From Amphibalanus amphitrite (taxonomy: Eukaryota; Arthropoda; Thecostraca; Balanomorpha; Balanidae), in the NCBI RefSeq assembly GCF_019059575.1, contig NW_024881538.1, positions 248,001 to 312,000 on the forward strand: 64,000 bases of DNA. Direction: 5' to 3'. The notes beneath the pieces were generated by a model. The model was not told where the DNA came from and did not search any database. It worked only from the letters and a program-made list of their open reading frames with translations. Each line of letters opens with the position of its first letter. Positions within the stretch are counted from its first letter, which is position 1. Shown piece by piece: positions 241-52,612 of the stretch. The translations under genes were made by a program, and so were the position numbers.

Positions 241-424
241 GTGGCTGCAGATATTTCCACTGCTTTATGACGCTCTGTGCCGCGGATATTTCCACTGTTG
301 TATGACGCTCACTATGCACCTTTATGTTGCGGATACTTCCACTGTTGTATGACGCTGTTGTATGACCGTGTGCCGCAGTTATTTCCACTGTTGTATGACG
401 CCCGCCTACCCCCCTGTGCCGCAG
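241..424 (+). repeat. Tandem copies of the SPPL3 exon acceptor junction
   Basis: The real acceptor reads TGTGCCGCAG then GTATTTCCACTGTT at 415-438. Four related copies lie just upstream, with boundaries at about 250, 285, 332 and 378, spaced 35, 47, 46 and 46 bases. Each carries a version of ATATTTCCACTG followed by TTGTATGACGC. The copies at 250 and 378 keep CAG at the boundary; those at 285 and 332 have CGG and should be dead. The array therefore contains the first bases of the coding exon, not only intron sequence. That is direct reading; the duplication mechanism is inferred. Confidence 0.85.
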
Positions 425-569
425 GTATTTCCACTGTTCGCTGATTGGCTACTTCCTGGGCCTGGTGACGGCCACCGTGTCGTCGGAGGTGTTCCGGGCC
501 GCTCAGCCGGCCCTGCTGTACCTGGTGCCGTTCACGCTGCTGCCCCTCCTCACCATGGCCTACCTCAAG
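425..569 (+). CDS. SPPL3: SPPL3 (signal peptide peptidase-like 3), penultimate exon, partial gene
   Basis: SPPL3 is a GxGD-type intramembrane aspartyl protease of the Golgi that cleaves type II membrane proteins such as glycosyltransferases (family knowledge). This exon encodes [20 protein letters not shown] and then a stretch containing [10 protein letters not shown], the conserved PAL motif of the C-terminal catalytic half, and ends ...[11 protein letters not shown]. The first base (425) completes a codon begun in an upstream exon outside the window; the frame is open from 426 to 569. The acceptor is CAG at 422-424 and the donor is AAG/GTACGA at 569/570. The YD and GxGD catalytic motifs must lie in exons to the left of the window. 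Both borders of this exon are the founding unit of tandem arrays in the flanking introns. Confidence 0.93.
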
Positions 570-1470
570 GTACGAAACTTTCCCCACTCCCATCCAACCC
601 CTGACCCTCCTCACCATGGCCTACCTCAAGGTAAGGGACTGTCCCCGTCCGTTCCTCTACCCCTGTCCCTGAAGCTCCTTAGCATGGCCTACCTCAAGGT
701 AAGGAACTGTCCCCGTCCCTTCTCCGCTGCCCCTTCTCACCATGGCCTACCTCAAGGTACGACATGGCCCCCTTCCTCTCCACTCCCTGCCACTACTTAC
801 CATGGCATATCTCAAGGTACGATATTCTCCCCGCTCCCATCCAACCCCTGCCCCTCCTCACCATGGCCTTCCTCAAGGTACGATATTCTCCCCGCTCCCA
901 TCCAACCCCTGCCCCTCCTCACCATGGCCTATCTCAAGGTACGGCATTTTCCCCACTCCCATCCAACCCCTGCCCCTCCTCACCATGGTCTACCTCAAGG
1001 TACGAAAATTTCCCCCACTCCCATCCAACCCCTGCCCCTCCTCACCATGGCCTATCTCAAGGTACGAAACTTCCTCCACTCCCATCCAACCCCTACTCCC
1101 TTATCATGGCCTACTTCAAAGTAAGAGACTGTCCCCGTTCCTCCTCACCATGGCCTACCTCAAGGTAAGGGGCCTGTCCCTTTTCTGCACCGCTCCTCAT
1201 CATGACCTTCCTCAAGGTACGACGATAGTTTCCGCGCTCTCCTCCAACCCCGTTCCTTCTCCCCATGGCCTGTATCTCAAGCTAGGGACGTGTCCCTTCC
1301 CTGGGCCCTCCTCACCATGACCTACCTCAGGGTAAGGGATGACGGAAGTGTCATCGTCTTTGCTCTGTACCGTCTCTCGGCGTACCTAATTGTTATATTT
1401 CTCCCTCTCCCTTCACTTAACCCTTGAGCTCGTCACCATGGCCTACCTTAAGGTTGGGAACGTTTTTCTG
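570..1470 (+). repeat. Array of 14 extra SPPL3 donor-junction copies inside the intron
   Basis: The end of the preceding exon (CCTCACCATGGCCTACCTCAAG) followed by GTACGA or GTAAGG is repeated about every 60 bases. Exon-like ends fall at 630, 698, 756, 816, 877, 938, 999, 1061, 1120, 1164, 1216, 1281, 1331 and 1452. Between them lies a shared filler rich in CCCACTCCCATCCAACCCCTG. All keep GT after the boundary except the copy at 1281, which has CT. Copies at 698, 938 and 1061 are in the same reading frame as the real exon, and that frame stays open to about 1121. The central copies are most alike and the last ones most diverged. Confidence 0.93.
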
Positions 1471-1628
1471 TAACGCCTGCAGATCATGGGCCATCGGACA
1501 TCGGCCATCGGCCACTGGTCACTGGTCATTGTTCGTGATCCGGTCCATCTCCTGTCCATATAGTGTGACCGTTGACCGCTGACCGTCGCCTGACCACACC
1601 TGACCGCCCCTCCCCGTCTGTCCCACAG

Positions 1629-1697
1629 GGCGACCTGCGCAGAATGTGGAGCGAGCCGTTCATGGCCTACAGCACACCGAAACAGCTGGACGTGTGA
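1629..1697 (+). CDS. SPPL3: SPPL3, terminal coding exon
   Basis: After a CCCACAG acceptor (CAG at 1626-1628) the exon reads GDLRRMWSEPFMAYSTPKQL then DV and a TGA stop at 1695-1697. GDLRRMWSEPF directly following MAYLK is the conserved cytosolic end of SPPL3; the last dozen residues vary among species. The phase fits exactly: the previous exon ends on a complete AAG codon and this one begins with GGC. It is the end of the gene, with the 3' untranslated region following on the + strand toward the paxillin gene, which is transcribed in the opposite direction. Confidence 0.93.
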   Translation, partial: GDLRRMWSEPFMAYSTPKQLDV

Positions 1698-2502
1698 TAC
1701 TGCCACCTGTCGGTCACAATCTGAACCTGAAGTCCTCCAGCGCGGCGCTGCCGGCGCCCCGCCCAAGGCCCGTTCCGTCTAGTCTGTGCGGGCGGCTGAC
1801 CCGATCTCGCCGCCGTGGCTCGCGCCGGCGCGCCGTTTTACAGACTCTGGCGCGCCGTTTTACGCCCGCGGCGTCCCGCTCATCGTATCTGTGTTGTAAT
1901 GGCCGCGCTCGACCCCTGCGTCGACCGGCACTCGGCGGCGAACAAGCCTAGTCTTTCTCCGTAGTGCTGACTGTTCCCTTCGGCCGCGCGCGCTCCGGCG
2001 ATACCTGGCGCGCGGCGGACGGCCGCCCCGCCGCCGGCGGCCGCCGAGGGGCGCATTTCAGAGTGTGTGTGTATGTGACTGACTGTGCGCGCCGCGGTGA
2101 CTCCGAGATTGGTTTTATAGTGTGTCATGCCGGCACGCGTTCTGAGCTACTGTGTGCGTGTGCGAATTGTGTTACTACATCTGCATCGTGTGGGACCGGG
2201 TGCTGGAACTGAGAGCGACAGATCTGCAGTCTAACCAGGTTTTGTAATCAGTACATGTTGTTTTTAACTATTGTGTTTTGGTGGCTTGGAACGAGTGTCT
2301 GAGGATAAGCGAGTGATGACCGGACAAAGGATTGTCATCGGTGCCCCGTAGTGAAACGATTTCTGCAGAAGACTGAGTTTTCACTGAATTAAGCCGTTTC
2401 ACTGACTTAACTCGCCCATTCCGTGCTCCTTCGCACTCGTTTGCACCTCCAACACATCGCCTACATTTCTTGACGGGGTTGGCGTGGCAGGGACAACACC
2501 GT
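1698..2502 (+). other. SPPL3 3' untranslated / downstream region
   Basis: This stretch is GC-rich up to about 2110 and then more mixed. No AATAAA or ATTAAA was found before the piggyBac-like element at 2507; a GT-rich stretch occurs near 2250-2285. No convincing coding exon is seen. The real end of the SPPL3 transcript cannot be placed from sequence. Confidence 0.5.
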
Positions 2503-2506
2503 TTAA

Positions 2507-3397
2507 CCCTCGCATGTGTGCGGCGTTTGCCAGCTTCTAATGTGTAGGGGGGGGGGGGGTCGGTTGGACCCCCCCCCCCTTGCCGTTTGGCCCCTGATCG
2601 AGCTAGAGCTTCGCGGAAAAAACGAGCGTGTTGCCCGTGACGAGAGGAAGCCGATGATACCCAATTTTAAGGTCCTAGGTCATTGGTTGACCTTCCAGGT
2701 CAGGTCAATGACCCAAAGTCGGGAAAATCGGGACCTGTTAGAAAGTCGTAAAGTGTGGCTGCTAAGGGGTTTTTCGGGGTGCTGATCACGAATATCGTGT
2801 TAGTTTTGATCACAGATGATGTCTTGAAGCATTTAGACCAGGTCGGGTCAGGTCAGGTCAGGTCAACCAGTAGGCGTCGTGACGGGTATTCGTAGTACGT
2901 GTCAACCGCCTCTGACAGCTTCGTAACATGTTACGAAGTCACCAAAACTACTTCGTAAATGTTCAAATGGTTGCTAAATTCGAATTCAGCTCCAAAAACT
3001 AGCCTAGAAACATGTAAAACTCGAAAAAGTGACCCGAGGTCACCCGAGGTCACTAAAGGTCAATGACCTGACCTGACCTTCAGATGACCTTGACACAGAC
3101 GGGAGTAACATCAAATCACATGTTTGAACGTTTGAAACCACGAAAAGCTTGCAAACACGTGGCTAGTGCGAGCCGACATACGCGAAATCGCGATTCCGGC
3201 CAAACATGGTCTCGGAAAAGAGGTCACAGGTCAAAGGTCATTTGGGTCAGGGTCATGAAATTTTCAGGGTAGGTGTCAAATTGATCAATGCGAGGGTACT
3301 GAAAGTTTCGTCGCGATCGGCCGCTTTTTACGCGAGTTATTCGCGAAAAACCATGGGGGGGGGTCCATCCGACCCCCCCCCCCTACACATGCGAGGG
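2507..3397. mobile_element. piggyBac-like non-autonomous element, copy 1 (891 bp)
   Basis: It is flanked by TTAA on both sides (2503-2506 and 3398-3401). The ends are inverted: CCCTCGCATGTGT at the left and its complement at the right. TTAA target duplication with CCCT-starting ends is the piggyBac pattern. Just inside each end is a run of G, a short spacer and a run of C able to fold back. No transposase is seen. The interior holds many GGTCA half sites, including CAGGTCAAAGGTCA near 3228-3241. It is the most diverged of the three copies in the window. Confidence 0.8.
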
Positions 3398-3472
3398 TTA
3401 ACTTTCACCGCAGGAGATCCGAGCAAGCACCGGGCTTTGGGATGAGGATGGGGTTATGATTGGAGGACCGCT

Positions 3473-3930
3473 TTTGTTTGTTTGTTTGTTTTGTTGGGTT
3501 AGGCTCTTTCGGTCCAGTAAGACCATTTCAGAGCCGGGAGGATGATAGGATATAGGGGGAGACATTGGTCTGGGCAGGCACCCTAGTGAGTCGCCGGGGC
3601 TGAGCCCGTCCGAAGACAGGCCACCCAGCCCCAAGGCACTCACTGCACCCGGCCCTCGGGAGCAGCGGTGCCGCTCCAAGGGAGCAGCCCGCATGAGATA
3701 AAGTTGCCTGCCCAGCCCGGAAGGGGGTTGTGGCGTGGAGGAGAAGGACTTCAGTATCCTGAGGATAGAAGCACGGACAGGTGTGGAGGACCGCGTTGGA
3801 GACCGCATATGTTGAAGGACTGGTCACACCAGCGATCCCAATAGGTGAAGGACTTAACACAAACGCGACAGAGCGGCGAAGATCCCGGACGGTGTTGCCC
3901 CCATCCCCCACCCCAACCCAATGGCGCCGC
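3473..3930 (-). mobile_element. 3' fragment of a non-LTR retroelement
   Basis: Read on the - strand this ends GGACCGAAAGAGCCTAACCC followed by AACA and (CAAA)n, like the tail of a LINE or a LINE-derived SINE. The same terminal motif occurs in a 53-bp insertion at 48990-49042 that has a target duplication, which supports a retroposed 3' end. The upstream part is GC-rich with no long conserved reading frame. The 5' border is not visible. Confidence 0.5.
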
Positions 3931-4822
3931 CCATCGGCGGATTTAGGGAACTACCCATCGTGACTGTGGCCTTGACTATCCGACTCAACGACTTGATGCC
4001 ACCAACCACGATACCAGGTAGTCAGAACGACAAACACATGTTCAAGCTTCGTAAATATTAGCATCAGTTCCATAAAATACACAAAAAGACGCAATGATCC
4101 GATCTGCATAACATGGACAACGAAACGACTCCTTCGCCGGTCTCCTCAAACGCTGTCCTTAGTCAGCTCTCCAGTAACAGTTGGCCTCGCATCGCACTCA
4201 AGTCACTGATAATTCCACGTCACACCTCGTTAGCTCACGTCACTGGGGTGGGTCCCCTCGACACGTCACACACTTCGGCACCAGTCGGGTCTTTTCATGT
4301 TCGAAGCTCTTCCACGCGACACGCCGAAAAACAGACGAAAACACACCACGGATAGAACTGCAGCGCCGATCCCCCACCCCTCCCGTTGCACTAGGTAAGC
4401 ATTAAAACTGTCCACTCTGGTCTCAAGCCGCGGGCATCCGCAAATAGCCGAAGAGCACCGAGACATAGCGCCTTTCACAGACAACACGGCGACAACAGAC
4501 ACTAAAACTGCCGTTCTACAAGCTCTGAAAACTCGTTACCCGAGTTGGCCTCAGGTACCCCCCCCCCCCCTCCACAGACAGCACGGGGCTGCGTATAAAT
4601 ACAGCGGTCATCATGATCGTCCGAGCGACTATAGCGCTCAAAGAAACGTACAAAATCTCCACTTGGCCTCTCACATTACAGCATTTCGGCCCGCCTTTCG
4701 ATGTCCTAACGCGTCATAGGGCGGTGGCGCCGGGCTGAAGCCAACACTGAATTCATTTCACCAGTCACTGATCATAAGATCACTCAGCACCAGTCACTGA
4801 TCACCAGCGTCACCAAACCGCT
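3931..4822. other. Paxillin 3' untranslated region and intergenic space
   Basis: This is the region between the two converging genes. It contains a poly-C run at about 4559-4570 and no convincing exon. No clear AATAAA (TTTATT on the + strand) was found downstream of the paxillin stop, so the main poly(A) site is not located. Confidence 0.4.
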
Positions 4823-4968
4823 TCAGCCGAACAGCTTGTCGAAACACTGGTGGCAGTAGGGCTTCTCGGCCTGCTCCTTGAACGTGCCCTTGTTGAGCTG
4901 TTTCAGGCAGAACGAGCACACAAAGTGCTCCGGGTGGAACTTGCGGAACATTGCCGTGATGCACCGAC
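4823..4968 (-). CDS. PXN: Paxillin terminal exon: second half of LIM4
   Basis: Paxillin is a focal-adhesion scaffold whose LIM domains bind zinc and direct it to integrin adhesions. This exon encodes [20 protein letters not shown], then [18 protein letters not shown] and HQCFDKLFG, ending at TGA 4825-4823. It supplies the H-x2-C, C-x2-C and final C-x2-C zinc ligands of LIM4, and matches the normal paxillin C-terminus. The acceptor AG is at 4970-4969. The first two bases (GT) complete a Gly codon begun by the exon ending at 7416, so the phase is exact. Confidence 0.95.
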
Positions 4969-7215: not shown

Positions 7216-7415
7216 GTCCATCTAACTGATAGGCTGAATGGTGACCACCGGCTGCTCTGATTGGCTGATCGGCGACCAGCGGCGGCTCTGATTGGCTTAT
7301 CAGCGACCAGCGGGGACTCTGATTGGCTGATCAGCGATCAGCGACCAGCGGCGGCTCTGATTGCCCGATCAGCGACCAGCAGCGGTCCTGATTGGCCGTT
7401 AGCCCAGCGACTGAC
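7216..7415. repeat. Minisatellite abutting a paxillin splice donor
   Basis: About six copies of a 30-38 base unit, CTGATTGGCTGATCAGCGAC plus CAGCGG on the + strand, run from about 7227 to the exon border. On the - strand the first unit is the real junction: CCAATCACAG then GTCAGTCGCTG, of which CCAATCACAG is coding. The later units read CCAATCAGAG then CCGCCGCTGGTCGCTG, so the donor GT is lost. The array thus begins in the exon and extends into the intron. Confidence 0.75.
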
Positions 7416-7536
7416 CTGTGATTGGTTTGTTGCATCCGGCGCAGAGGGATCCCCGCTTGGCGTGGTAGTGCGTTTCGCAGTACGGCTGGCCCTCGTAGTC
7501 GAAGAACGAGCCGCCCTGAAATGACTGCTGGCAGTC
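7416..7536 (-). CDS. PXN: Paxillin exon: second half of LIM3 and start of LIM4
   Basis: This exon encodes [20 protein letters not shown], then [20 protein letters not shown]. It completes LIM3 (the C and final C/H ligands) and opens LIM4 with CAGC. Similar residues occupy the same place in vertebrate paxillin. The acceptor is TTACAG (AG at 7538-7537). The exon ends with one base (G, 7416) before GTCAGT, and that base plus GT at the next exon makes Gly. It is mutually exclusive with the alternative last exon at 10621-10740, which also follows FVCK. Confidence 0.94.
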
Positions 7537-8417
7537 CTGTAAGTGGATAGGTCAAAGGTCAATGACAGGGCAGTCAGGTCACTGTCAGTGGCGGGTCAGT
7601 CAGGGTGAGTCAGATCATGGTCAGTGTCGGTCCAGGTTATGGTCAGAGACATCTCACGCCCAGGGTTAAACAATGGTTCATCAAACAACATAGATATTGG
7701 TCCAAAGGTGGTTTATGGTCCAAAATATCAGACCGATGCAAAAAGATCGCCCGATTCATGATTCGAAAGCGTCAATACAATTCACTCAGGCGTCATTACT
7801 CTTACATGTGACCACTGACAGTTGCAAGAAGACATCACAGAGCGGGCAACTAACGACAGCTCGCTAACCAACACAATCATAGTCATGACGCCCAGGACAT
7901 CACAAATGCGCACTTTGAGAGCCCAGTGGGGCAGTTTTCACTCCCAGTCATTGACCCACAAATCACAAAACCCCAACCCCAACAGGTGAATAAACAGTTC
8001 CAGTGAAGTCCTCAGAACCTCAGGTTCTTTCCAGAAGATGCCCCGCCGCTGCGTAGCGCTGGTCTGACATCACCTTCCCCTACACCCAGGGAGGAAGGGG
8101 GGAGGGAATCGGCGGCTGGCACGGCGGTCGTGTTGTGATTTGCCACGGGGACAACATGGGGCAGACGCCAGCGTCGATGGCCCAACGACCTCGTCGAAAG
8201 TCACCGCCCAATTCCCGTCACCTTCTCAGAACGGCGACCGAAAATATACGCCGCGGGGTAGAGGGAGGTGGGGTGGGGGTGATTATTTGTTGGATGGGGA
8301 CGGGTGGAGGGTAGAGGTGGGCTTCGGGGGGGGGGGGGCGAATTAACGGCACAGGTGTCCGCTTTACCCAGCAGGTTCCCCGGTCTAGGGTGGCCACGGT
8401 TATGGGTCCACGTCAAA
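7537..8417 (-). other. Paxillin intron
   Basis: AGGTCAAAGGTCA occurs at about 7549-7561, next to further GGTCA/GTCAG motifs. G runs lie near 8325-8340. No coding exon is recognised. Confidence 0.4.
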
Positions 8418-8618
8418 ACAGCTAGTGACTATTGAGCTAGTGACTTTTGAGCTAGTACAAAAGAGCTAGTGCTTCAAAACAGCTAGTGACAACACAGCTA
8501 GCGCCAAAATAGCTAGTAATGCAAAATAGCTAGTGCATTAAATCAGCTAGTGACTAAACAGCTAGCGTCAATATAGCTAGTAGAGCAAAATAGCTAGTGC
8601 TTCATTATAGCTAGTCAT
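8418..8618. repeat. AGCTAGT array with higher-order structure
   Basis: Thirteen AGCTAGT or AGCTAGC cores occur every 14-17 bases. They fall into three groups of four with the same order of variants: core followed by GTGAC, then GTGAC or CGCC/CGTC, then TA(n)CAAAA, then GTGC. Group lengths are about 61, 64 and 64 bases, plus a thirteenth core. This is a short higher-order tandem repeat inside a paxillin intron. Confidence 0.85.
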
Positions 8619-8633
8619 AAGAGTAGGAACCAT

Positions 8634-8712
8634 GGGTGCAGTGGGTGCAGTTGCACCCACAATAATTCTCCAGTGGGTGCAGACAATGTATTCTGCACCC
8701 ACAATAATCTGG
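8634..8712. repeat. GTGGGTGCAG / CTGCACCCAC inverted motif cluster
   Basis: GTGGGTGCAG and its complement occur alternately four times in 75 bases, including GTGGGTGCAGTTGCACCCAC. This could be one end of a DNA transposon, but no partner end or target duplication was found. Confidence 0.45.
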
Positions 8713-16128: not shown

Positions 16129-16252
16129 CTTGAAGTCTGAGAGCGAGGCCATGAGGTCGTCCAGTTCCTGAGTGGCCGACGAGGCGGTCCGGCAGCCGTC
16201 CGGTACACTCTCTGTCACCGTAACCGTGCGCGTCTCGTACGTCCGCGCATTT
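16129..16252 (-). CDS. PXN: Paxillin exon: LD4 motif
   Basis: After one base (A, 16252) that completes the previous codon, this encodes NARTYETRTVTVTESVPDGC, then RTASSATQELDDLMASLSDF and K. ATQELDDLMASLSDF is the LD4 motif, which in vertebrates binds FAK and GIT proteins. The acceptor is CTCCTCAG (AG at 16254-16253) and the donor AAG/GTACCG at 16129/16128. The single leading base fits two upstream exons: CA at 28424 gives Gln, and GA at 23289 gives Glu. Both full-length and short isoforms can therefore pass through this exon. Confidence 0.94.
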
Positions 16253-28423: not shown

Positions 28424-28529
28424 TGGCTGGGTACCGAGTCCAGTTCATCCAGCAGCGCGTCCACCGATGGCCTGGAGGTGTGTCCGTGTACCGCCACAGA
28501 GCCGCTGCCGTTTACCGGTGAGGGAGAGT
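28424..28529 (-). CDS. PXN: Paxillin exon: LD3-like motif
   Basis: The exon begins with AC, which completes Asp with the G left by the exon ending at 38067. It then encodes SPSPVNGSGSVAVHGHTSRP, SVDALLDELDSVPS and two bases (CA) that become Gln at the LD4 exon. SVDALLDELDSV fits the LDxLLxxLxxx pattern and sits where LD3 is expected. The acceptor is TTCGCAG (AG at 28531-28530) behind a CT-rich stretch; the donor is CA/GTGAGT at 28424/28423. The region around the motif is Ser/Pro/Gly-rich as in other paxillins. Confidence 0.88.
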
Positions 28530-30855: not shown

Positions 30856-31945
30856 ATGGATAGGGAGCAGGAGCCGCCACTGCTCCAGTTCACTCCAGCG
30901 TGCACACTGCACAGCTGGTGTGGGAGTGAGTTCTGGTGAGCCTCACAGTCAGTAGCAGAATGATGTTTCTAGGAGAGGTCATATAGACGCGTCCAGTTGG
31001 CTGGATAAACTCGAGAGAAGCGATATGTACTGTAACACATCATAAGACGGCAACTCAAGTGACACTTCCTGCTAAGACCAGCACACAAAAGTATTGTAGC
31101 AGGAATGTCATTCCTACAAATTAAAAAAAAAAAAACATCTTGGGCGCAGCACGTCGAGTGGAACACTGCTTAGTTAGCTGTAGGGACGGTGAGTGGGTGG
31201 AGAATAACCTAGTGGTGGGTGGAGGCACAGTAGCCAGCCGGCGCTAACCGCCGATCAAACACCGCCCGGCCATTCCGGTTACTCAGCCCGCCCTGCGCCC
31301 AGATCGGATCGGAGAGCTGCACAGTGCGCGGCGGCCGCTCCGAACTGTGCCAAGGCAGCCCCGCGTCAGAGAGCGGCACCCGCTGACGGCTCCGGCGCCA
31401 TACGGACGGCACGCATTGATGGCCTTCGCAGCGGTAAAAACGGTCACCTCCTCTCTCGTGTGGACCAGCTCAGGTCCACGAGGGTAGAAGCGTCAAGCGA
31501 CTCAACAGTCAAAGATCCAGACGCGACGAACACGTAGGATTGTGGAAGCATTATTAAGTTAGATCAGGGAACTATCTCAGCAACAATCTGACGACAACGT
31601 AACAAAGTATATTGGTTGTGAAAAAAGTATTGGTTATGAAAAAAAAACAATCAGCCAGAATCAAAGAAACCCTCGAGCATCCAAGGCATTTCCAAAATCC
31701 AGCTGTAAGAAGTTCAGTCGCACACAAATGCGGACGCCTTTGTGCTCTGCCGACCGTTCGTCTCACGTAAGTTGCTCGCCTGCCTCGCCCACGCTCACCT
31801 GACTCACCTACTTAACGTAATTTTTCACTTGCTTTGCTACAACTCACACAGCCAACACTACACACACAACATCCACTTACGCCCACCCATCACAACACTC
31901 GCAACACCACTTTCCAACACCACACTACACCTACCTCACTCCACC

Positions 31946-33043
31946 ATGCCTCCCCCTCCCACCACCTTCTCTCCCCAATCCTACATCCGTTTCCGTCGCC
32001 TGGATGGGAGTCCCATGACCGATCTCTCCCCCTGGGCCGTGGAGGATTCCCTCGTCGGGGCGGTCGGGCGCTGTCCCAGCGCCAGGCCGCTCCGTGGGGG
32101 GGACCTCATGGTCCGCTGCGACCCGGATGACCGCCAGGCCTTACTGGCGGTCAGCCGGATCGCTGGGGTTGAGGTTCGGGCTTGGGCCCCTCCTCACCTA
32201 AATCGATCCCAGGGATCCATTTTCGCTCCTGGCCTCCAACACCTCTCCATCACCGAGCTGGAGGAAGGTTTCAGCCGCGTGGGTGTCCGCGCGGTTTACC
32301 GACCCCCTCGCTCTCCTAAAGTCCTGATCCTGACCTTTGAGTCCTCCATGCCTCCGTCCACCGTCCGAGCCGCCTACCTTTCCTTCCATGTTCGTCCTGT
32401 CCTTCCCAAGCCCATGCGCTGCCGGCGGTGCCAGAAGTACGGGCATCGCCAGCAGCACTGCCGATCCCCAAATCCTGTGTGCTCGAGCTGCTCCAAGCCG
32501 GGACACGAATCCCAATCCTGCACCTCCGACTCCCTCTCCTGTGCCGGGTGCCGTGGCCCCCACTCCGCCGACGACCCCAGCTGCCCGCGTTGGGTAGCTG
32601 AGTGCCGCGTCTCCCTGCTGGTCCGCCAGGGCTGGGAGGTTCGCGACGCTCGGGAGTACGTTGTCGCCCATCCTGACTCCAACCCTAACCAAGTCCCTCC
32701 CCCTCCTCCGACCCGCCCTCCGCCGCCACTTTCCGACCGAGAGTACCCTAACCTCCCTCCTCCCGCCAGCCGGTCCTCCACCCCCACTTACCACCCTATC
32801 TCCCCTGCCCCCAACGCCAAGCCTCCTCCTCCTCCTCCCAGACCGGATACCCCGGCGCGTGTGACGCCGAAGGTCCCCCCGAGGCCCAAGGACCTTGCGG
32901 CTGCGAGAGACGGCTCCTCCTCGGAGCTCGGTCGAGCGGGTACCCCCCCGCCAGCCCGCCGCCGGAGCCCCCGAGCTCCGCAACCCAACCCCATCCTCCT
33001 CCGGAACGGGTGCTCGCGCCCAGTCCTCCGCCGAGGATCCTAA
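31946..33043 (+). CDS. I-like LINE ORF1 (gag-like zinc-knuckle protein)
   Basis: This is the nucleic-acid-binding first protein of a non-LTR retrotransposon. The start is the ATG in CCACCATGC at 31946; the frame is 365 codons plus TAA. The central part carries three zinc knuckles: CRRCQKYGHRQQHC, CSSCSKPGHESQSC and the variant CAGCRGPHSADDPSC, followed by a proline-rich tail. This arrangement is usual in I- and Jockey-group elements. The last part may be frameshifted: another frame ending near 33209 keeps a Ser/Gln-rich C-terminus after the proline-rich section. Codon use is GC-rich, in contrast to the A-rich ORF2. Confidence 0.85.
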   Translation: MPPPPTTFSPQSYIRFRRLDGSPMTDLSPWAVEDSLVGAVGRCPSARPLRGGDLMVRCDPDDRQALLAVSRIAGVEVRAWAPPHLNRSQGSIFAPGLQHLSITELEEGFSRVGVRAVYRPPRSPKVLILTFESSMPPSTVRAAYLSFHVRPVLPKPMRCRRCQKYGHRQQHCRSPNPVCSSCSKPGHESQSCTSDSLSCAGCRGPHSADDPSCPRWVAECRVSLLVRQGWEVRDAREYVVAHPDSNPNQVPPPPPTRPPPPLSDREYPNLPPPASRSSTPTYHPISPAPNAKPPPPPPRPDTPARVTPKVPPRPKDLAAARDGSSSELGRAGTPPPARRRSPRAPQPNPILLRNGCSRPVLRRGS

Positions 33044-33235
33044 CCACCGCAACCCAACTCCTTCATCCTCTGATCATTCCGACCAGAGCCAGCAGACCGA
33101 CTCCTCCAGCAGTCCATCCACGCCACCGGCACGGGGCCAGGCCAGGCGCCGCCTCCAGTCCGCCCCGTCGGACTCCCACCCGTACACCCTCCGTAACCAG
33201 CGTCAGTAGAACACACACACACAGACACACCCACG

Positions 33236-36031
33236 ATGACCCACCACGCCATCCATAATGTAAAAGTGCTGCAGTGGAATGTTAGGGGAATCCTGGGCAA
33301 TTGGGCGGAAGCCAAACAGGCCCTTCTGGCATCAGAAACATCTGTTATGTGCATTCAGGAAACTCATCTAAAACCCGGGGACCCATACAATCTAAATTTG
33401 ACATCCTTCACTTTCATCAGAAAAGATTCAACACTAGTCTCAGGAATTAGAAGAGGTGGCGTAGGAACATACATCAAAAACAACTTGCCTTATCGAGAAA
33501 TAGACACAAATAGTACTTTAGACATCCAAGCTATCGAGATCAAAACAACACAGAGTTTCATCACAATTGTAAATTTTTACGCTTCACCATCAATAGATTT
33601 TCCAAAATTCTTAAACGATTTAGAATCAACAATCAGCAGTATTTCCACCCCCATCTTACTAATCGGTGACGTAAATGCGCACCACCCACTTTGGGACCAT
33701 AACCAAGAGACACCAAACACCAAAGGCCACATATTTAATGAACTCATGGATAAGCTTAGCTTGGTTGTCCTCAATGATGGATCCCCAACATTCCCTGCAG
33801 CACGGCACCAAAACACAGACAGCACTCCGGACATTTCAGCAGTGTCACCATCCTTGGCACTATCCTCTTCTTGGGAAACAAATCCAGACCCCTATTTTTC
33901 CGACCACCGACCCATCCTAATATCCTTGGGACAAACATCACCCTCTCTCCCTTCAGCTAAAAGATTTAACCTAAAAAGAGCTAACTGGGAAGCCTACAGA
34001 AATACACTGGAACACCAAAGCTTCACAGAACACACAGTAGAACAGTTCACACAGCACATCACCAAGACAGCAGAACAACATATCCCCTACACTAATACAC
34101 AACACCGACGCCCTAAATCAGTACCCTGGTGGAATTATGATTGCACTCGGGCTATTACCTTTAGAAACACTGCGAGACACCGATTTGAAAAAACACGATC
34201 AGAAGAAGACTTTATTATTTACAAAAGAGCCAAGGCTAGGTGCAAAAGAATTATCAAAGAAGCAAAGCGCAAAAGCTTCGAAGAATTTGCAAACAATTTT
34301 AACAGATTCACCCCTCTATCAAAAATATGGCAAACTATCAAGGCCTTTAAAGGTAATAAAACAACTACCAAAAAAGCGATAGAAATAGTCCACAACAACA
34401 ACAAGTACACTTCCCCAAACGAAATAGCAAACCAATTCGCGGAACATTATCTACAGGTATCCTCACAAATACCCGCTCCTGTTCCTCGTCCTATCCCAAT
34501 CAGTACACAAGATTCCCAAATTTATAATGTCCCCTTTACCATGTCAGAATTAGAAGACTCTATCAAATCAACAGGAAACAGCTCCCCGGGTCCAGACCAG
34601 ATCCCTTACCCTTTCTACCAGCAACTAGGCCCAAAAACTAGACTAGCTCTCTTAAAAGCATTAAACCACTCCTTTACTTTTCATGCCTACCCAAAAAGCT
34701 GGTTCCACGCCCACATTATCCCTATCCTAAAACCCAACAAAAATCCAAACCTCCTTGAAAGCTATCGACCTATCTCTCTAACAAACACAATCCACAAACT
34801 TTTTGAACGAATCATTAAAAACAGACTGATTTATCACCTACAAAAGCACAATCTAATCAGTAAATACCAAAGCGGATTTCTCCCAGGACGAAGCACTTTA
34901 GACAACCTTATCCAAATCACTTCCGACATTAAATACTCATTTGACTCCCAACAGTATACTGCGGCAGCCTTTTTAGATTTAAAAAACGCCTACGACACAC
35001 TAAACATAGAAGCTCTTCTAGATTTCCTTAACTCCAACTTCAGCGGTCACCTCCTTCACTACTTAACGACATACCTCACTCAAAGAACCTTCCAAGTTAA
35101 ATATCTCGAAACCCTCTCTTCCGTCAAAACCCCCACATCCGGACTTATGCAAGGATCAATCCTAAGCCCGATCCTCTTTATCCTAGCCCTCAATTCAAAA
35201 CTAAGCCAGGTCCCAAGCCCTGCTAAAATGTCACTTTTTGCCGACGACATTACCATTTGGTCATCCAATCAATCCCCCAATACCGCACTAAAATACACCC
35301 AACAAGCCCTAGACCACATCACCAATGCCCTTAAACCATTAAACCTACACATATCCAGTGAAAAATCCCAAAGCGTCATTTTCAGCCGAAGAAAACCTCT
35401 CAACCCTCTACCCCTAACCGTTAACAGTTCAATAATTAAAATAACAGACACCGCAAAATTACTAGGCATCACACTAGATCGTGGCTTTACCTTTCTCCCA
35501 CACATTAAAATTATTGCAGCCAAAGCCTCACGACGAATTAACATATTAAAAGCCCTCGCAGGAACCGACTTTGGAGGTGACCGGAAAACTCTTGTAAAAT
35601 TATATTCATCACTCATTAGGCCCATGCTAGAATACGGCTCAATTATATTCGAAAACACAGCAAAAACACATTTAAAAAGATTAGACACAATTCAAAACAC
35701 CTGTATTAGAATATCAACAGCAGCATTTAAAACCACCCCAATCGAGGCCCTGGAAATTTACAATAACATTGAACCTTTAGCAGAAAGAAGGTCGATAGCT
35801 TTCACTAAATACTTTTCCAAAATTCAATCTATCCCAAACCACCCCTGCACTCCTATCATTAAATTCAGATCCTTCCTCTCCAAGCATAAAGAACAAAAAC
35901 GCATTTCATACGGATCCCGACTCAAAACACTTATGCGAAAATACGACTTAACACTGCCTCAACCAAAAATACTCAAGCCGGTGGCGTGGTGGACCTATCC
36001 TCAATCAACACTCCACCTTCTACTGGAATAA
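33236..36031 (+). CDS. I-like LINE ORF2: endonuclease and reverse transcriptase
   Basis: 931 codons. The N-terminal AP-like endonuclease shows QWNVRG, QETH, GDVNAHHPLW, STPDIS and SDHRPI (about residues 10-230). The reverse transcriptase (about 430-730) shows SYRPISLTN, GFLPGRSTLDN, the motif A aspartate in FLDLKNAYDT, GLMQGSILSP and the catalytic FADDITIW. All visible catalytic residues are intact. ORF1 ends 190 bases upstream. The frame stops at TAA 36029-36031, but RNase H continues in the same frame straight after it, so this stop is a nonsense mutation or a readthrough site rather than the natural end. Confidence 0.93.
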   Translation: MTHHAIHNVKVLQWNVRGILGNWAEAKQALLASETSVMCIQETHLKPGDPYNLNLTSFTFIRKDSTLVSGIRRGGVGTYIKNNLPYREIDTNSTLDIQAIEIKTTQSFITIVNFYASPSIDFPKFLNDLESTISSISTPILLIGDVNAHHPLWDHNQETPNTKGHIFNELMDKLSLVVLNDGSPTFPAARHQNTDSTPDISAVSPSLALSSSWETNPDPYFSDHRPILISLGQTSPSLPSAKRFNLKRANWEAYRNTLEHQSFTEHTVEQFTQHITKTAEQHIPYTNTQHRRPKSVPWWNYDCTRAITFRNTARHRFEKTRSEEDFIIYKRAKARCKRIIKEAKRKSFEEFANNFNRFTPLSKIWQTIKAFKGNKTTTKKAIEIVHNNNKYTSPNEIANQFAEHYLQVSSQIPAPVPRPIPISTQDSQIYNVPFTMSELEDSIKSTGNSSPGPDQIPYPFYQQLGPKTRLALLKALNHSFTFHAYPKSWFHAHIIPILKPNKNPNLLESYRPISLTNTIHKLFERIIKNRLIYHLQKHNLISKYQSGFLPGRSTLDNLIQITSDIKYSFDSQQYTAAAFLDLKNAYDTLNIEALLDFLNSNFSGHLLHYLTTYLTQRTFQVKYLETLSSVKTPTSGLMQGSILSPILFILALNSKLSQVPSPAKMSLFADDITIWSSNQSPNTALKYTQQALDHITNALKPLNLHISSEKSQSVIFSRRKPLNPLPLTVNSSIIKITDTAKLLGITLDRGFTFLPHIKIIAAKASRRINILKALAGTDFGGDRKTLVKLYSSLIRPMLEYGSIIFENTAKTHLKRLDTIQNTCIRISTAAFKTTPIEALEIYNNIEPLAERRSIAFTKYFSKIQSIPNHPCTPIIKFRSFLSKHKEQKRISYGSRLKTLMRKYDLTLPQPKILKPVAWWTYPQSTLHLLLE

Positions 36032-36950
36032 AAAAAGACCGACTACTCTCCTCACGAAATCCAAGCACTTCATAACTCCTTCCTGGCGCTCTACCCCAAC
36101 CACAACCTCTTTTATACAGACGGCTCAAAAAACACAACCACAAACAAAACAGGCGCAGCAGCTGTGAGGCAAGCCAGAGGCACGGTAACAACGGCGTTAA
36201 AAGAGAGACTGCCAGGATCAACGTCAATATTCTCCGCGGAGCTATACGCTATCCTGGCAGTCTTCACCATTATTAAGCATGAAAACTTAAAAAAATGTCA
36301 TAATCATTTCGGATTCCCTATCAGCCCTCCAATCAATACACCCAAAATATGTTACAACTCACCCACTAATATGGAGAATTGTCCAAATCCAAAATTCGCT
36401 TTCTCAACTACCAAAATTTCTATGGATCCCCTCCCACTGCGGTATACCCCTTAACGAAAAAGCCGACCAACTTGCAAAAGAGGCCCTAGATCTCCCACAC
36501 CCTGCAAAAATCCCATCATCAACAACAGAATTTTACTCAAAACTAAAAGAAAAGAGTAAAATCAAAAGACAACAAAAATGGGACAATGCACAAACATTCT
36601 TCAGAACTATTCACCCTAAAATTGACCCTTGGTCATCAATCAATCTAAGCTCTAGAAAAGAGGAAAAACTAATCGCAAGACTACGTTTTGGCCACACAAA
36701 ATTAACACACTCCTTTACCTTTCTAGATGAAAATCCACCGCAATGCCCAACTTGCAATATCCAAATAACAGTAAAACACATGATCTTAAATTGTCAAGAT
36801 TACAACCGAGAAAGACAACCATTAATAGATTACTGTAATAGAAATAATATCTCCTTTAACCTGCCAAATGTCCTTGGGGACAATTATCCCCAGTTACTAA
36901 ATTACCTCTTAGACTTTTTATCTAAAACAGGACTAGAAAATCAAGTATAA
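36032..36950 (+). pseudogene. LINE RNase H and C-terminal remnant, separated by a stop and a frameshift
   Basis: Directly after the ORF2 stop, and in the same frame, NLFYTDGSKN and FSAELYAILAV give the first Asp and the Glu of RNase H. At an A run near 36290-36296 the frame shifts by one base; the continuation reads VIIISDSLSALQSIHP and WIPSHCGIPLNEKADQLAKE, the remaining catalytic Asp and His regions. A cysteine motif (CPTCNIQITVKHMILNC) follows, then a TAA at about 36948-36950. This is the C-terminal part of the ORF2 polyprotein. Confidence 0.85.
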
Positions 36951-37779: not shown

Positions 37780-38066
37780 AATGGAGTTGTTCCTTCACCT
37801 ACCGGCTGCTAATGGATGTAGAATAAACCTTTTTCTGGATCTAGCTACACCCTTATCTGCAGGCCACCACTGGATGCAGCAGTACCCATGCTTGATATAT
37901 CTGCACCCTCACCTGCAGGCTGCAGGCCACCGCTGGATGCAAGTGTACCACTGCTGGATGGAGCTGTACCCTGATCTGTAGGCCCCTGCTGGATGTACTC
38001 GTACCCTCACCTGCGGGCCGCTGCTGGATGTAGCTGTACCACTGCAGGATGTACCTGCACCCTCAC
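37780..38066. repeat. Tandem copies of the paxillin LD2-exon donor junction
   Basis: On the - strand the exon end CTACATCCAGCAGCGGCCCG followed by CAG and GTGAGGGT is repeated downstream. One copy, ending at 38011, is identical across the whole junction including GTGAGGGT. Another keeps CTGCAG/GTGAGGGTGCAG at 37913. At least five more diverged CATCCAGCAG-GG units reach about 37790, some with GATAAGG or GATCAGG instead of GTGAGG. Confidence 0.88.
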
Positions 38067-38238
38067 CTGCGGGCCGCTGCTGGATGTAGCTGCCGTTGTA
38101 GCGCGCCTCGTTGAGGTCGTACAGCAGCGTGTCCAGCTCCTGCAGGTTGTTGCCGACCGGTGACCGGTACTCGCGCGGTGGAGACGCCTCCCGCGGGAAG
38201 TGCCGCTTCGTCTCCGAGACCGTCTCCGAATACATGTT
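38067..38238 (-). CDS. PXN: Paxillin exon: LD2 motif
   Basis: 57 codons plus one base. It encodes NMYSETVSETKRHFPREASP, PREYRSPVGNNLQELDTLLY, DLNEARYNGSYIQQRPA and a final G that becomes Asp at the next exon. NLQELDTLLYDLNEA is the LD2 motif (FAK and vinculin binding in vertebrates). YRSP fits the YxxP Crk-SH2 pattern, an inference. The acceptor is GTTTCAG (AG at 38240-38239) and the donor GCAG/GTGAGG at 38067/38066. The last 28 coding bases are the founder of the adjacent intronic array. Confidence 0.93.
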
Positions 38239-43228: not shown

Positions 43229-43835
43229 TTAACAGAACGGCAAAGACGCAAACGAAGTTCCGCGCCGTGGATGACGCCCAACTCACCTCAGCCTGATACA
43301 TATCCGTGTCTTGTTACGGCACGTGCCGTCTGACCGTCACACCACCGCCCACGTCACACAGTCCACCTCAGTCAACTCGTAACTACACCAGCTAAGTCAC
43401 AGTCCCCAGTCCCTACAGCTGGCCGCGCGGTCCCCTCTAAGCTCCCTCGCACCCTCACACACTGAGTCACAAGGGCGGCGAGCGGCCACGAGCGGTGCAC
43501 TGGGACTGGAGCGGCGCGGTGAGGTGAGGGGCGGGGCGGGGCGGCCGAACCGGCACGGAATACGGGCCGGGCAGAGGGCGCCACCGGAGCCGGCGGGCCG
43601 GTCTGCTCCGGGCGGGGCTCAGCACTGCAGGGAGGGGGGGGGGGGGAGGTGCTCCACGGTCTGGCTCAGCCGTACGGAGGTGCTACGGAGGGAAGACCTG
43701 AGGATGCTCGGAGAGGCAGAGCTGGCGGGAAGGTGGCGTCGGTCGGGTATATCTCAGCGAAATGGAGCGAGGGATGCTTCAACAGTAGGGTTCATGCAGC
43801 AAGGTGATGGAGAAAGGGAAAAAGGTGGGAAGGAA

Positions 43836-45512
<1,677 letters not shown>

Positions 45513-45520
45513 TTCCGTTC

Positions 45521-47864: not shown

Positions 47865-47872
47865 TTCCGTTC

Positions 47873-48978
47873 AAAGCAAATGACGTGCCATCCTTCTCGG
47901 GATACTCAGTGAATAACGGAACATCCGCCGCGGAGCACCTATCAATAACTGAACATCGCCGGCTCATCGGGCGATTGCCACTCCAGCAAATAGGAACCTG
48001 CGCCGCCCCTGGAAACGTTACCGACCCAGTTAATGGAACAGTCGCGTTCCGCCGCCGTATGGCGTCTCTCCAGCCGAACCGACAAGGAGCTAGGTATACC
48101 ATCACCGAAAGGTTTTAGTCTCAAACCACTTTGCTTGGCCTGGGAATCCCATAAATGGACACGGCTGATTAAAGTGCTGACATAAAAGATGAGATGGTAT
48201 TGCGATACAGTAAATAGGGAAACGTATCAATCGGTACAGACTAAAGGTCATGTAAAAGTTAAAAAGAGCAAAAACACACATATTGCGACATGAAACAACA
48301 ATTTATCGAATAATGATCGGATCCGACGTCAAAGCGCTCTTAAACTCCTCCAAGCACAGCTCATCGAGAGATGGTTATTGATTTAGTCACAGCCGCATTG
48401 ATTCAGTCAGTAGGTGGTGAGTAAGTAATAGCTGAAGAGCTCGATGTCCTCAACGTCGAAGGCTGGAAGGCTAAAAAAAGATAGGCAAGAAGCTTTTGGT
48501 AATTGATTCTTTCCAGTGACTAGCGATGACCGATGGAGGCTGGTGTCGACCGTTAAATTCTAGCGCCGAGCCGTGCAAAGCCTTACGGATATCAACGAGA
48601 GGCTAGCCAGCAGTGACCGGCATCATTTGTCAGCTCACAGCCAGGAGTGTCCGAAAACAGGGCCCGAGGATTGCCGACCGCTGTAAATCCAGCGCGGCGA
48701 CAGGCCTAATCCGGCGTCTGGCGGTGACATATGGGCAGAACAAGTGTGTCCGCCGTAAAGCCGACACGCCTCGGCCGTATGTTAGAGAGCATGTGCAGCG
48801 AAACAACGGCCATGTAATCATGCCGCAGACGGGACGGCGCGGCGGAGAGAAGGTCAGGGAGCGGCGGACCGGGGGGCACGGCTGAACGGCGAGCCGGCCC
48901 GGTCAAGGGGCCAGTGTAAGCGTGCACAGAAGACCGACAGGGCCGTGCCGCACTGGGTCAAATCGGGTCGGGTCAGGT
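47873..48978 (-). other. Paxillin intron
   Basis: No exon, mobile element or clear repeat is recognised in this stretch. Confidence 0.35.
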
Positions 48979-48989
48979 CGCATCGCATT

Positions 48990-49042
48990 TTTTTTTTTTT
49001 TTTTTGTTGGGTTAGGCCCTTTCGGTCGACAAGACCAAAGGG
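48990..49042 (-). mobile_element. 53-bp truncated retroelement insertion
   Basis: On the - strand: CCCTTTGGTCTTGTCGACCG then AAAGGGCCTAACCCAAC and poly-A. It is flanked by the 11-bp direct repeat CGCATCGCATT (48979-48989 and 49043-49053). This is a severely 5'-truncated copy of the family whose 3' end is also at 3473-3930. Confidence 0.85.
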
Positions 49043-49139
49043 CGCATCGCATTGAATCGAGCAGTATCATGTCGGGTCAGGTCGGTTTGTGTCGTACTTG
49101 AACGCCACAGGCCTTGATGGTCAGGGCAGCTCGGATCAG

Positions 49140-49349
49140 ACCGGTGGGGATCCACGTTGGGCTGCTCAGTATGGTCGGCAGCACGGGTGACGGGCAGGGT
49201 CAGTGTGATCCTCACCTGGTAGGTAGGTATCCACTTTCGGTTGGTAGGTCTCATTCGAATCAATTTGACACTGACTTGGTAGGGGTCTGCGTTAGGCTGG
49301 TAACGCAGAAGGCAGCACTGATAAGAGGCCGGGTCGGGTCGACACTCAC
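49140..49349. repeat. Tandem copies of the paxillin LD1-exon donor junction
   Basis: On the - strand the 21-base coding unit CAGCCCAATGTGGACCCCTA continues past the real donor (49350/49349, GTGAGTGTCGACCC) as intronic copies: GCCTAACGCAGACCCCTACC with AA/GTCAGTGTCAA (boundary 49276), a copy with CTACCAG/GTGAGGATC (boundary 49216), and CAGCCCAACGTGGATCCCCA near 49160. Two of the three keep a plausible GT donor. Confidence 0.85.
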
Positions 49350-49552
49350 CTGGTAGGGGTCCACATTGGGCTGGTAGGGGTCCACGTTGGGCTGGTAGGG
49401 ATCCACATTGGGCTGGTAGGCTGGCAGCACGGGAGACGGTGACCGCTGCTGGTGACTGGGAGAGTACGCCACTCGCCGGGGACTGCCACCCACCGAGCCG
49501 CCGCTACCCGCCTTGTGTGTGATGGTGTTCTGAAGATCGGCCAACAGCGAGT
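49350..49552 (-). CDS. PXN: Paxillin exon: LD1 motif and QPNVDPY repeats
   Basis: The exon begins with AC, which makes Asp with the G ending exon 1. It encodes SLLADLQNTITHKAGSGGSV, GGSPRRVAYSPSHQQRSPSP, VLPAYQPNVDPYQPNVDPYQ and PNVDPYQ. Together with DL from exon 1 the start reads DLDSLLADLQNT, a typical LD1. The C-terminal end is three perfect heptapeptide repeats, each with a tyrosine, not expected in paxillins. The acceptor is GTTTCAG (AG at 49554-49553) and the donor CAG/GTGAGT at 49350/49349. The coding repeat continues into the intron. Confidence 0.94.
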
Positions 49553-50236
49553 CTGAAACAGAAGGCCAACCATGGTCAGACACACGATTTAGTATATGCT
49601 AGCATTCGGGGCACGGATAATTGTATGCCATATTCGATGCAGATACGCTTTATTATATAACATTTCCATCGATGATGATGACTTGATGCAACAAAGCGCA
49701 CCATGGGCACCAAGCCATATTGCATCCCAATCTAGCCTCACTCAATGGTGCCTATAAATCACTTGGAACCCGGAGGTCGTATTTTATTTTACATCAAAAT
49801 GGGAGCTGCTTTATTAGGAAGATATTTGCAAGCTGATAATTTAGCATAGACGTTGGACAAAGTGCCAGAACAATTCCCTGAAATATGTTTCGGGTTAATC
49901 AAAATTCTCAGGAATCATAAAGGCGATGGTCATGGTAGGAAAGTAAATGCAATCCAAAGAAATCCTTTTAACTTTTCTCGATAACATGAGTAACTGGTTA
50001 GCATATTTATGCTCATGATAATGGCAATGCTAAAAAACTGTTTCATAACACAACAACATGTTCCCTTTCGCCCACATTCTAATTCCACTCATCATCTCAT
50101 CTTCAGCAGAGAGCAGAAAAAAAATACAAGTCATTTGCGTCATTCAAGCTCGATGTAGATGTCGCACGTCACGCCAGTTGAAAGTGAGAAGCTCACACAT
50201 CAAGAAGTTCACAGTTGAAATAGTTCAATATATAAG
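49553..50236 (-). other. Paxillin intron 1, part
   Basis: AT-rich sequence with no supported exon, ending at the mariner insertion. Confidence 0.35.
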
Positions 50237-50238
50237 TA

Positions 50239-51528
50239 CGAGGGGGTATCGAAAAGTTCTGATCATCACCACGAATGAGATGTGATAGAAATTTGATTTT
50301 TTTACATGATGTTCATTACTCCTTAACAAGTCACCACACACGACCGCAAACTTATTGCTTCGTTTCTTGAGCTGCCTCAGGCGGTCATTGTAGGACCTTC
50401 GCACTGTCCCGTAAATCACTGCTCCATCTCGTCAATGACGTCACTTCTGTCCTTAAATCACCGGCCATACTGTGGATTCTTCTTCTCCCGTAACAATCAA
50501 GAGTCAGTTAATATCCGGTCAGGTGAATTTCTTTAGATGCGGTAGGATTTAATGTCCACATCATGTTCTTTCTTCAATCGCAGCTCAGGACGAATGGGCG
50601 GGAGCGCTGTCGGTGCGGATAAAACATCTTTCTTGGGCTTTTTTGCGGCGATTCTGCTTGAGGCCATCTCGCAACTTCTTCAAAAGTGTGCAGTGGTGCT
50701 TGCCTATCATTATCCGACCATCATCAAGACAGTCGGTAATGACTATCCTACGCCAGATCCAGAACACTGATAGCATTGACCTTCCATATCGGCTTCTGCA
50801 TCTTCGCCTTTTAAGAAGGACAGATGTGCCGTGCTTAAACTTCTTGATCATCTTTTTGTCTCTGGATCGTGCACATAGACCCAGCATTCGTCGCAAGTCA
50901 TCAAATTATCGAAGATGTCTTCAATTTCCTAAAAAAGGCCTAGTCTTGGTTTCGAAGGGCCAAGACGCATTTTTCTCTTGAACAAAGTAGACACACGAAC
51001 TTCTAAGCGGGCTGACTCCTTTATCGTCTGTAGTTCTTCGCTGATAATATTTTCAGGCACTGCCAGCATAGAGACCTTTCTGTTGCACAATCATCTGAAA
51101 GGTCACACGACGATCTGTAAGGATGAGGTCCTCCACTTCCTTCACAGTCACCACCTTGTCAGTCACTGGTAGCCACTCACTTCTTGACTCCCCTGCAAGG
51201 GCCATGCAACCAAGTTGAAAATTATTTCTTCATTTTCGGTAAGTGCATGAGATGGGCTTTCCTCGCCATAAACTGATTTCACGTTCTTGATGTATTTTCT
51301 CAGTGTGATACCGTTTCAAATGCATTAGTTGGATGACGGCTCGGTCCTCAATGGGCCCAATACTCATCTTTTTTACTTCTAAGTCTCTCCTACATAAGAT
51401 AAAACCACTTCTCAGGATTCTCTTTGCGGGAACATTGTTCTTAAGAACCAAATATAATACCAACCAAAAATCATCAAAATCGATCCACATCTTCTATGTG
51501 ATGATCAGAACTTTCCGATACCCCCTCG
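50239..51528 (-). mobile_element. mariner element (1,290 bp)
   Basis: The inverted ends CGAGGGGGTATCGAAAAGTT and the complement of CGAGGGGGTATCGGAAAGTT continue as CTGATCATCAC and are each next to TA. Size, TA flanks and end sequence are those of a mariner. The degraded transposase is on the - strand. It lies in the first paxillin intron, in the same orientation as the gene. Confidence 0.93.
50258..51367 (-). pseudogene. mariner transposase relic
   Basis: Near 51367-51290 the - strand reads MSIGPIEDRAVIQLMHLKRY then HTEKIHQE, the N-terminal helix-turn-helix of mariner transposases. At 50896-50585, DDGRIMIGKHHCTLLKKLRD is followed downstream by TDSAPAHSS, the region of the second catalytic Asp (usually HDNAPAH). 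The parts are in different frames and separated by stops, so the gene is dead. Confidence 0.85.
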
Positions 51529-52239
51529 TACGCTTGGTAATTGACACTTGAAGAGGCACGCTAGCACCCCATAAACGATAATGATGTCAGCAATGTCACA
51601 GCCAATGGACACATTTGCATACTTTAGCTCGTTTTTGACGCAGCTGAATGCCGCATTGGAGGCCTCCGAGTGTTCAACCGAGCTTAACAATGTTAACAAT
51701 GAACCGTCTCACAAAAGCGCGCCAAAACGCGGCCACTCCGCTGCAATGAACGGCTCCAATGTCCGTGGTCGAACAGCCGTGCAATTAAACCCACCGGGGT
51801 ATCGACCTGGCGCATTTGTGAGCGGAGTCCAAGCCGCCGGACGGTTCACGGAATAGCTGAAGCAGCTCGGCGTATTTCTACTGCCGCCAACAACGGCCAT
51901 GGCAGCGGCCTATCGCCACACAGCCAGAGACAGCGGATAAGTTGCACAACTGAGTACGGCAGGCGTCACGCAAGCGGGCGGAAGGACTACTACTAGTACT
52001 TATGTCGCGCTGTCATGCTCGTCATTTAGTGAATCCTCAAAGCATCACCAGGACGAAAAATTATGTTATTCTACCTTTTCATTTTTAAGCTTACCTATTT
52101 CATTGCCAATGGTTGTTTAATTTTCTCTTCTTTTTTTTTTCCTCCTACCTAGCCCGACTGGAGTACCCAAATCCCGTCTCCTTAGCAAGCACCCGAAACT
52201 CTGAGCTTGCATTACTGCACACTGTACCTCCGGGTGTAT

Positions 52240-52332
52240 CCCACCCACCCCTCCATACCTAGATCCCCGACCTCTCCGATCCGCCTTTGTCCACACTCTG
52301 TACCTTCGAACGGGATCACACCCCCTCCATAC
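52240..52332. repeat. Single tandem copy of the paxillin exon 1 donor junction
   Basis: On the - strand CGGAGAGGTCGGGGATCTAG followed by GTATGGAGGG occurs at the real junction (52333/52332) and again 74 bases downstream (boundary 52259/52258). The match is essentially perfect over the last 22 coding bases and the first 10 intronic bases. Confidence 0.88.
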
Positions 52333-52612
52333 CTAGATCCCCGACCTCTCCGACCGACACCATCGCCTCTGAGTCAATGGAGTCACAGGAGCCGAGCAGG
52401 AGTCGATCCTGCGGCAGGTGGTACAGCAGGGCCAGCGGGCGGCCCTCCTCCTCCGGGGCGGGCCGACGAGCCTCGGAGCCGCAGGCGGGCGGCGACCCGC
52501 AGGGCGTCACACAGATACTGGGCGGCGCCGCCCCTGCCCCCGGCGGCACAGGCGAGCTCTCCAGGGGCACGCTGAGCTCGTGACGCGCCGGCAGAGACTC
52601 CGGGGAGGTCAT
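52333..52612 (-). CDS. PXN: Paxillin first coding exon
   Basis: The ATG at 52612-52610 is the first in the predicted transcript. The exon encodes MTSPESLPARHELSVPLESS, a Pro/Ala/Glu-rich stretch, LLYHLPQDRLLLGSCDSIDS and EAMVSVGEVGDL, then one G before GTATGG. Joined to AC of the next exon it forms DLDSLLADLQ, the LD1 motif. That junction and the phase identify it as exon 1. In vertebrates LD1 begins within a few residues of the start, so about 84 residues here are an extension unless translation starts at the internal ATG (52363-52361, good context GCGATGG), giving MVSVGEVGDLDSLLADLQ. The extension itself is not similar to anything I recognise. Confidence 0.82.

Follow-up and report, generated by a model that had tools for sequence, protein, structure and literature searches.

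Tandem Copies of Splice Junctions in Genes of the Barnacle Amphibalanus amphitrite and Their Relation to Exon–Intron Boundary Minisatellites

Introduction

Turri et al. 1995 reportedly describe, by their title, a minisatellite with multiple splice donors, in the gene IFI6 (6-16). Tandem repeats at exon–intron boundaries have been described in human segmental duplications, where 162 alignments contained them and manual inspection left 27 intron modifications, preferentially by minisatellites (PMC2812944). Two further papers concern new introns: intron gain via tandem duplication in Drosophila (PMC2891723), and direct repeats in new Daphnia introns, which are ascribed there to staggered double-strand breaks (PMC4202315). 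The present work deals with tandem copies of splice junctions, arranged as local arrays, in a 64,000-nucleotide stretch of DNA from the barnacle Amphibalanus amphitrite (hereafter the window), located on contig C41 (1,534,127 bases) of an 807.55-Mb assembly, and in two conserved gene families of the same genome. A literature search on introns and tandem repeats in the A. amphitrite genome found no paper.

Junction Copies in the Two Genes of the Window

The window contains two genes, an SPPL3-type protease gene on the plus strand and paxillin on the minus strand. The former encodes a peptidase A22B (Pfam PF04258, E 1.5e-17) with YD and GLGD motifs in its upstream exons, and is taken here to belong to the SPPL3 subfamily. 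The minus-strand gene corresponds to the NCBI protein 'leupaxin-like isoform X2 [Amphibalanus amphitrite]' (P0001), at 100% over the query, and its top matches among solved structures carry the name paxillin.

The score of a splice junction is that of the best-scoring local match to its 50-mer (25 exon and 25 intron bases) within 600 bases. Junction-spanning tandem copies are present at 5 of the 26 junctions of the window genes: donors 569 (score 42.5), 38067 (40), 52333 (32) and 49350 (22.5), and acceptor 424 (22). These scores are equalled by 1.2 to 5.3% of 1995 control windows from the two gene spans, a control set that takes in windows within the five junction arrays themselves. The 26 junctions consist of 17 first scored, two further pairs (one of them scored with 400-base flanks and not listed singly) and five from the upstream part of the SPPL3-type gene, among them one candidate acceptor with a score of 13. 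An earlier inspection of the letters of the window, here called the sequence-only reading, had listed six borders with tandem copies in about twelve exons. Five of the borders stood; the sixth, donor 7416, was rejected with a 50-mer score of 8.5, equalled by 59% of the control windows, and in the minisatellite near it, an array wholly within the intron, no recognisable junction copy was seen. The exon count was too low, as P0001 adds 28529–28424 and 16252–16129, and three SPPL3-type exons are located at or ahead of the window start.

The best copy at every positive junction is intronic. Donor 49350 additionally has repeats on the exon side: these 21-bp coding repeats, which encode YQPNVDP three times, reach the donor (49350–49420; Tandem Repeats Finder) and are part of the annotated protein. 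Several rows were also returned by Tandem Repeats Finder between 37857 and 38092, the region of paxillin donor 38067.

The most elaborate structure surrounds a single 145-base exon of the SPPL3-type gene, both borders of which bear arrays, each inside its own intron (Table 1). Tandem Repeats Finder places arrays near this exon at 275–438 and 540–1136. The acceptor-side unit is composed of a GCCGCAG-like stretch and about 14 nt of the exon start, and the donor-side copies are spaced by 44–121 bases in an ungapped listing that leaves out the copy at 1256. A genome search with window positions 1–600, the sole unit queried, in which only the best candidates were scored and very common words were skipped, gave 10 matches: the stretch itself, eight within its own array and one 48-bp match elsewhere (88%). 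Each unit is built from its own exon border and the units differ from junction to junction, so that a single mobile element, whether introner or transposon, was rejected as the source, in agreement with the sequence-only reading.

Recurrence in Kinesin and CCT Genes

Kinesin motor domains and CCT chaperonins, two conserved families chosen for reasons other than junction copies, served as comparison genes from the same genome. Of 139 kinesin matches 101 were used, and of 101 CCT matches 50 (eight contigs, with closely similar contigs excluded). Introns were called from neighbouring domain matches on the basis of phase, open frame and GT/AG consensus, with a summed score >8; this gave 39 introns from 46 kinesin exon pairs and 27 from 35 CCT pairs, with 7 and 8 pairs dropped, respectively. 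By eye, the junction peptides of the called introns fit the kinesin and CCT families.

With a self-match score of at least 16 taken as positive, 9 of the 132 junctions, in 9 of the 66 introns, bear copies: kinesin donors 3/39 and acceptors 3/39, CCT donors 0/27 and acceptors 3/27. C270/C397 and C405/C801 are closely similar kinesin loci, hence the nine cases represent seven independent events, four in kinesin and three in CCT genes. All nine matches cover the border, six of them with at least 6 bases on each side and those of C15, C270 and C397 with 5 on one side. Units are about 30 to 135 bp long and mostly spaced by about 30 to 102 bp, with 135 bp in C15. The copies stand head to tail, the unit extends over the exon–intron border and its size is that of a minisatellite (about 10–100 bp). 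At C1029 the functional copy is preceded by three consecutive spare ones, each made up of a pyrimidine tract, CAG and the start of the exon, and C789 has four spare 45-base copies, the first one being more diverged. Junction-covering copies recur across genes sampled for other reasons, and the claim of the sequence-only reading that the process is a repeated one is borne out.

Chance or an assembly artefact is a barely credible source of these arrays. Closely similar contigs do point to a complex assembly; against this, none of 132 Markov-shuffled junction regions of the comparison genes reaches 16 (maximum 11), and the pairs compared have related arrays on two separate contigs that differ in sequence. 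Copy number differs between such contigs, which may be alleles or recent paralogs: C1029 has four copies and C1931 three, the functional one counted, with 78.6% identity over 655 aligned columns, and C405 has 7 unit starts in an intron of 251 nt vs 11 in one of 401 nt in C801. Closely similar contig pairs occur in the assembly more generally, for example C401/C887, C1029/C1931, C405/C801 and C397/C270, and are either unpurged haplotypes or recent duplicates; divergence over the aligned parts is about 7 to 21% in the four pairs that were compared.

Copying through RNA, that is, by reverse transcription of pre-mRNA or lariat intermediates, would fit the junction-covering units, but the copies hold unspliced exon–intron sequence joined head to tail in the same direction, just as expected from simple duplication of DNA, and this route has a negligible probability.

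Duplication, Selection and the Question of Junction Targeting

The junction arrays are probably accounted for by frequent short tandem duplication filtered by selection. Many tandem arrays are present in the barnacle genes sampled. Through a presumed mutational mechanism, tandem duplications of an ordinary, short kind (minisatellite units of about 30–135 bp) would happen to cover a splice junction, and the array would grow afterwards by slippage or unequal exchange. Duplications inside exons would presumably be lost through selection, since the protein is altered, and those spanning a border would be tolerated because the outermost splice site, at the exon edge, still yields normal mRNA. The spare copies would thereby end up inside the intron, probably for the most part unused.

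The sequence-only reading had instead proposed that splice junctions seed the arrays, and that a comparison of junction self-matches with shifted windows would support it if junctions were enriched. Carried out here on 66 introns, this comparison gave enrichment over exon interiors and none over introns. Pooled junction windows are positive in 9/132 cases and intron windows in 205/2444 (Fisher P 0.63), and exon-interior windows are positive more rarely than junctions, in 22/2066 (P 5e-5); both P values are only indicative because the windows overlap. The separate figures are 6/78 junctions vs 164/1298 intron windows for kinesin and 3/54 vs 41/1146 for CCT, and in the window genes the rate at junctions (5/26) agrees with that of near-junction intron windows (186/998). 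When the scored position was shifted along the 66 introns (400-base flanks), positives among donors numbered 3/66 at offset 0 and 5/66 at +60; for acceptors the counts were 6/66 at 0 and 7/66 at +5 to +15, and for both they were 0/66 at exon depths of 50 and 60 nt. There is no peak at offset 0; matches first appear at exon depths of about 20 to 30 bases and continue level into the intron, which is the pattern of a tolerance boundary.

Several results weigh against duplication without targeting. CCT acceptors alone (3/27) exceed the CCT intron windows, and the plateau of the offset profile is weaker than an independent control because the same arrays run from the junction into the intron. Further results come from a test in which whole arrays were placed at random within each intron, up to 30 bases into the exons being allowed (the author's choice). 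In the window (10 introns, excluding the SPPL3-type intron ending at 424) 4 of 15 arrays lie at junctions with 0.51 expected (P 0.0015), in CCT 3 of 8 with 0.95 expected (P 0.058) and in kinesin 6 of 14 with 2.71 expected (P 0.027). After removal by eye of seven near-identical contigs, which left 29 kinesin introns, the kinesin figures become 4 of 12 with 2.03 expected (P 0.12), and those of the pooled comparison genes 7 of 20 with about 3 expected. Other settings of the test gave similar results (6/15 vs 2.76 and 5/21 vs 0.63 expected).

Seeding, in which R-loops, a paused polymerase or DNA structure at splice junctions would raise the local rate of tandem duplication, predicts such an excess, and by eye the exon share seems to lie near the middle of the unit in many cases. 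Even so, junction seeding is unlikely, given the similar rates in pooled junction and intron windows and an offset profile without a junction peak, though it may act in a weak form. Moreover, an excess of this order would be expected in any case. As selection preserves the exonic member of a junction pair, its two copies should lose similarity about half as fast as a purely intronic pair, and this slower decay alone would give an approximately two-fold excess of detectable junction arrays. The mild array-level excess would then reflect the frozen exon side, and the larger excess in the window is itself what the window was picked for. A new junction-seeded system is not needed.

Divergence Within Arrays and Selection on Spare Sites

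Divergence was computed among intronic copies only, and in four of five arrays the remainder of the unit is about 1.9 to 3.8 times as diverged as the exon-derived part of the spare copies. The values are 0.159 vs 0.522 for the SPPL3 donor array (nine older copies, leaving out the copy without GT), 0.107 vs 0.333 for the SPPL3 acceptor array, 0.083 vs 0.311 for C789 and 0.113 vs 0.213 for C1029/C1931; in the array at paxillin donor 38067 there is no difference (0.400 vs 0.390). The comparison rests on these five arrays because all columns of C405 and C801 counted as exon-derived. This result, too, sits uneasily with a purely passive fate of the copies, as repeated copying from a frozen exon edge should yield at most a two-fold difference. 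A simpler cause may be faster change and poorer alignment of the pyrimidine-rich spacers.

Selection could keep the intronic donor and acceptor copies as back-up, decoy or splicing-regulatory sites. In the SPPL3 donor array the GT and the G at +5 are kept in 13 of the 14 intronic copies, whereas at +4, and likewise at +6, 6 of 13 copies depart from the functional one, and the lower divergence of the exon-derived core in four arrays points the same way. On the other hand, the paxillin 38067 array shows no constancy of the core and has lost GT in 2 of 5 copies, the AG is gone in 2 of the 4 intronic copies of the SPPL3 acceptor array, and, as the lengths of several units (61, 73 and 74 bp) are not divisible by three, splicing at an adjacent spare site would cause a frameshift. 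As a general account, strong selection acting on every spare site was rejected because several copies have lost GT or AG, and spare-site selection as the source of the arrays is very unlikely. A broader proposition is improbable as well: that about one in ten introns of this barnacle bears tandem copies of its own splice junction in which the exon-derived part and the splice site are more constant than the rest of the unit, through continual regrowth from the exon edge or selection on spare sites. Frequent duplication filtered by selection remains the preferred explanation.

A separate intronic array of AGCTAGT type at 8414–8615, away from junctions, shows by eye a constant core and variable spacers, and resembles the SPPL3 array minus the splice site.

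Other Features of the Window

The exons and arrays are collected in Table 1. P0001 begins with MED-LDSLL and has a first exon different from 52333–52612, and paxillin may have alternative first exons here. A 145–149-bp tandem array at 62357–64000 (11 copies, 93% matches) reaches the window end, and another is found at 60643–61262. A LINE-like element occupies 31709–36950 on the plus strand, with open frames of 444, 944 and 219 aa that look by eye like retrotransposon proteins.

Table 1. Exons and tandem arrays of the SPPL3-type and paxillin genes, in window coordinates.
Feature	Positions	Strand	Remarks
Acceptor-side array of SPPL3-type exon, 4 intronic copies then the functional one	244..424	+	copy starts 244 to 372
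SPPL3-type (peptidase A22B) exon, 145 bases	425..569	+	acceptor 424/425, donor 569/570; PF04258, splice consensus, frame
Donor-side array of SPPL3-type exon, 14 intronic copies of the exon's last 24 nt	607..1452	+	unit ~61 bp
SPPL3-type last exon	1629..1697	+	splice consensus, frame, stop codon
Intronic minisatellite near donor 7416, not spanning the border	7226..7396	-	
Paxillin LIM exon, donor 7416 without junction copy	7416..7536	-	
Paxillin LD4 exon without junction copies, outside the border list of the sequence-only reading	16129..16252	-	P0001
Paxillin exon without junction copies, outside the same list	28424..28529	-	P0001
Donor-side array, ~5 intronic copies, GT kept in 3	37780..38036	-	
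Paxillin LD2 exon, donor 38067	38067..38238	-	P0001
Intronic copies of LD1 exon end, two with GT	49208..49302	-	
Paxillin LD1 exon, ending in 21-bp coding repeats (YQPNVDP)	49350..49552	-	identical to P0001
Intronic copy of exon 1 end and donor	52248..52284	-	35/36 aligned columns identical, one gap
Predicted first coding exon of paxillin	52333..52612	-	donor 52333, inferred from frame and consensus; absent from P0001

Comparison with Known Systems

If 9 of 66 sampled introns of conserved genes bear border-covering copies, this genome would be a natural test bed for splice-site choice among near-identical neighbours and for how intron edges grow. The IFI6 minisatellite and the SPPL3 donor array are alike in that the repeat unit supplies donors, several in tandem; the IFI6 donors are, according to the title, part of the transcript, whereas those of the barnacle SPPL3-type gene are predicted from sequence.

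Intron gain by tandem duplication of proto-splice sites (PMC2891723, PMC4974935) resembles the barnacle case as a short tandem duplication with splice signals, but there the duplication falls inside an exon and makes a new intron, while in the barnacle the edge of an intron is duplicated. Daphnia, also a crustacean, likewise has direct repeats common to the intron and the adjacent exon; the shared exon repeats in Daphnia are 4–12 bp long and belong to newly gained introns, unlike the barnacle arrays (PMC4202315).

The sequence-only reading knew of no named class to which the arrays could be assigned. Tandem repeats at human exon–intron boundaries had, however, already been described, and they are variable in number and able to give alternative splicing, with minisatellite-sized units (human mean 30 bp) located, as in the barnacle, at exon–intron borders (PMC2812944). 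The human case concerns variation between segmental duplications with transcript evidence, and the barnacle arrays lie in conserved genes and are known as DNA sequence. The barnacle arrays thus belong with these known exon–intron boundary minisatellites and are apparently frequent in the A. amphitrite genome.

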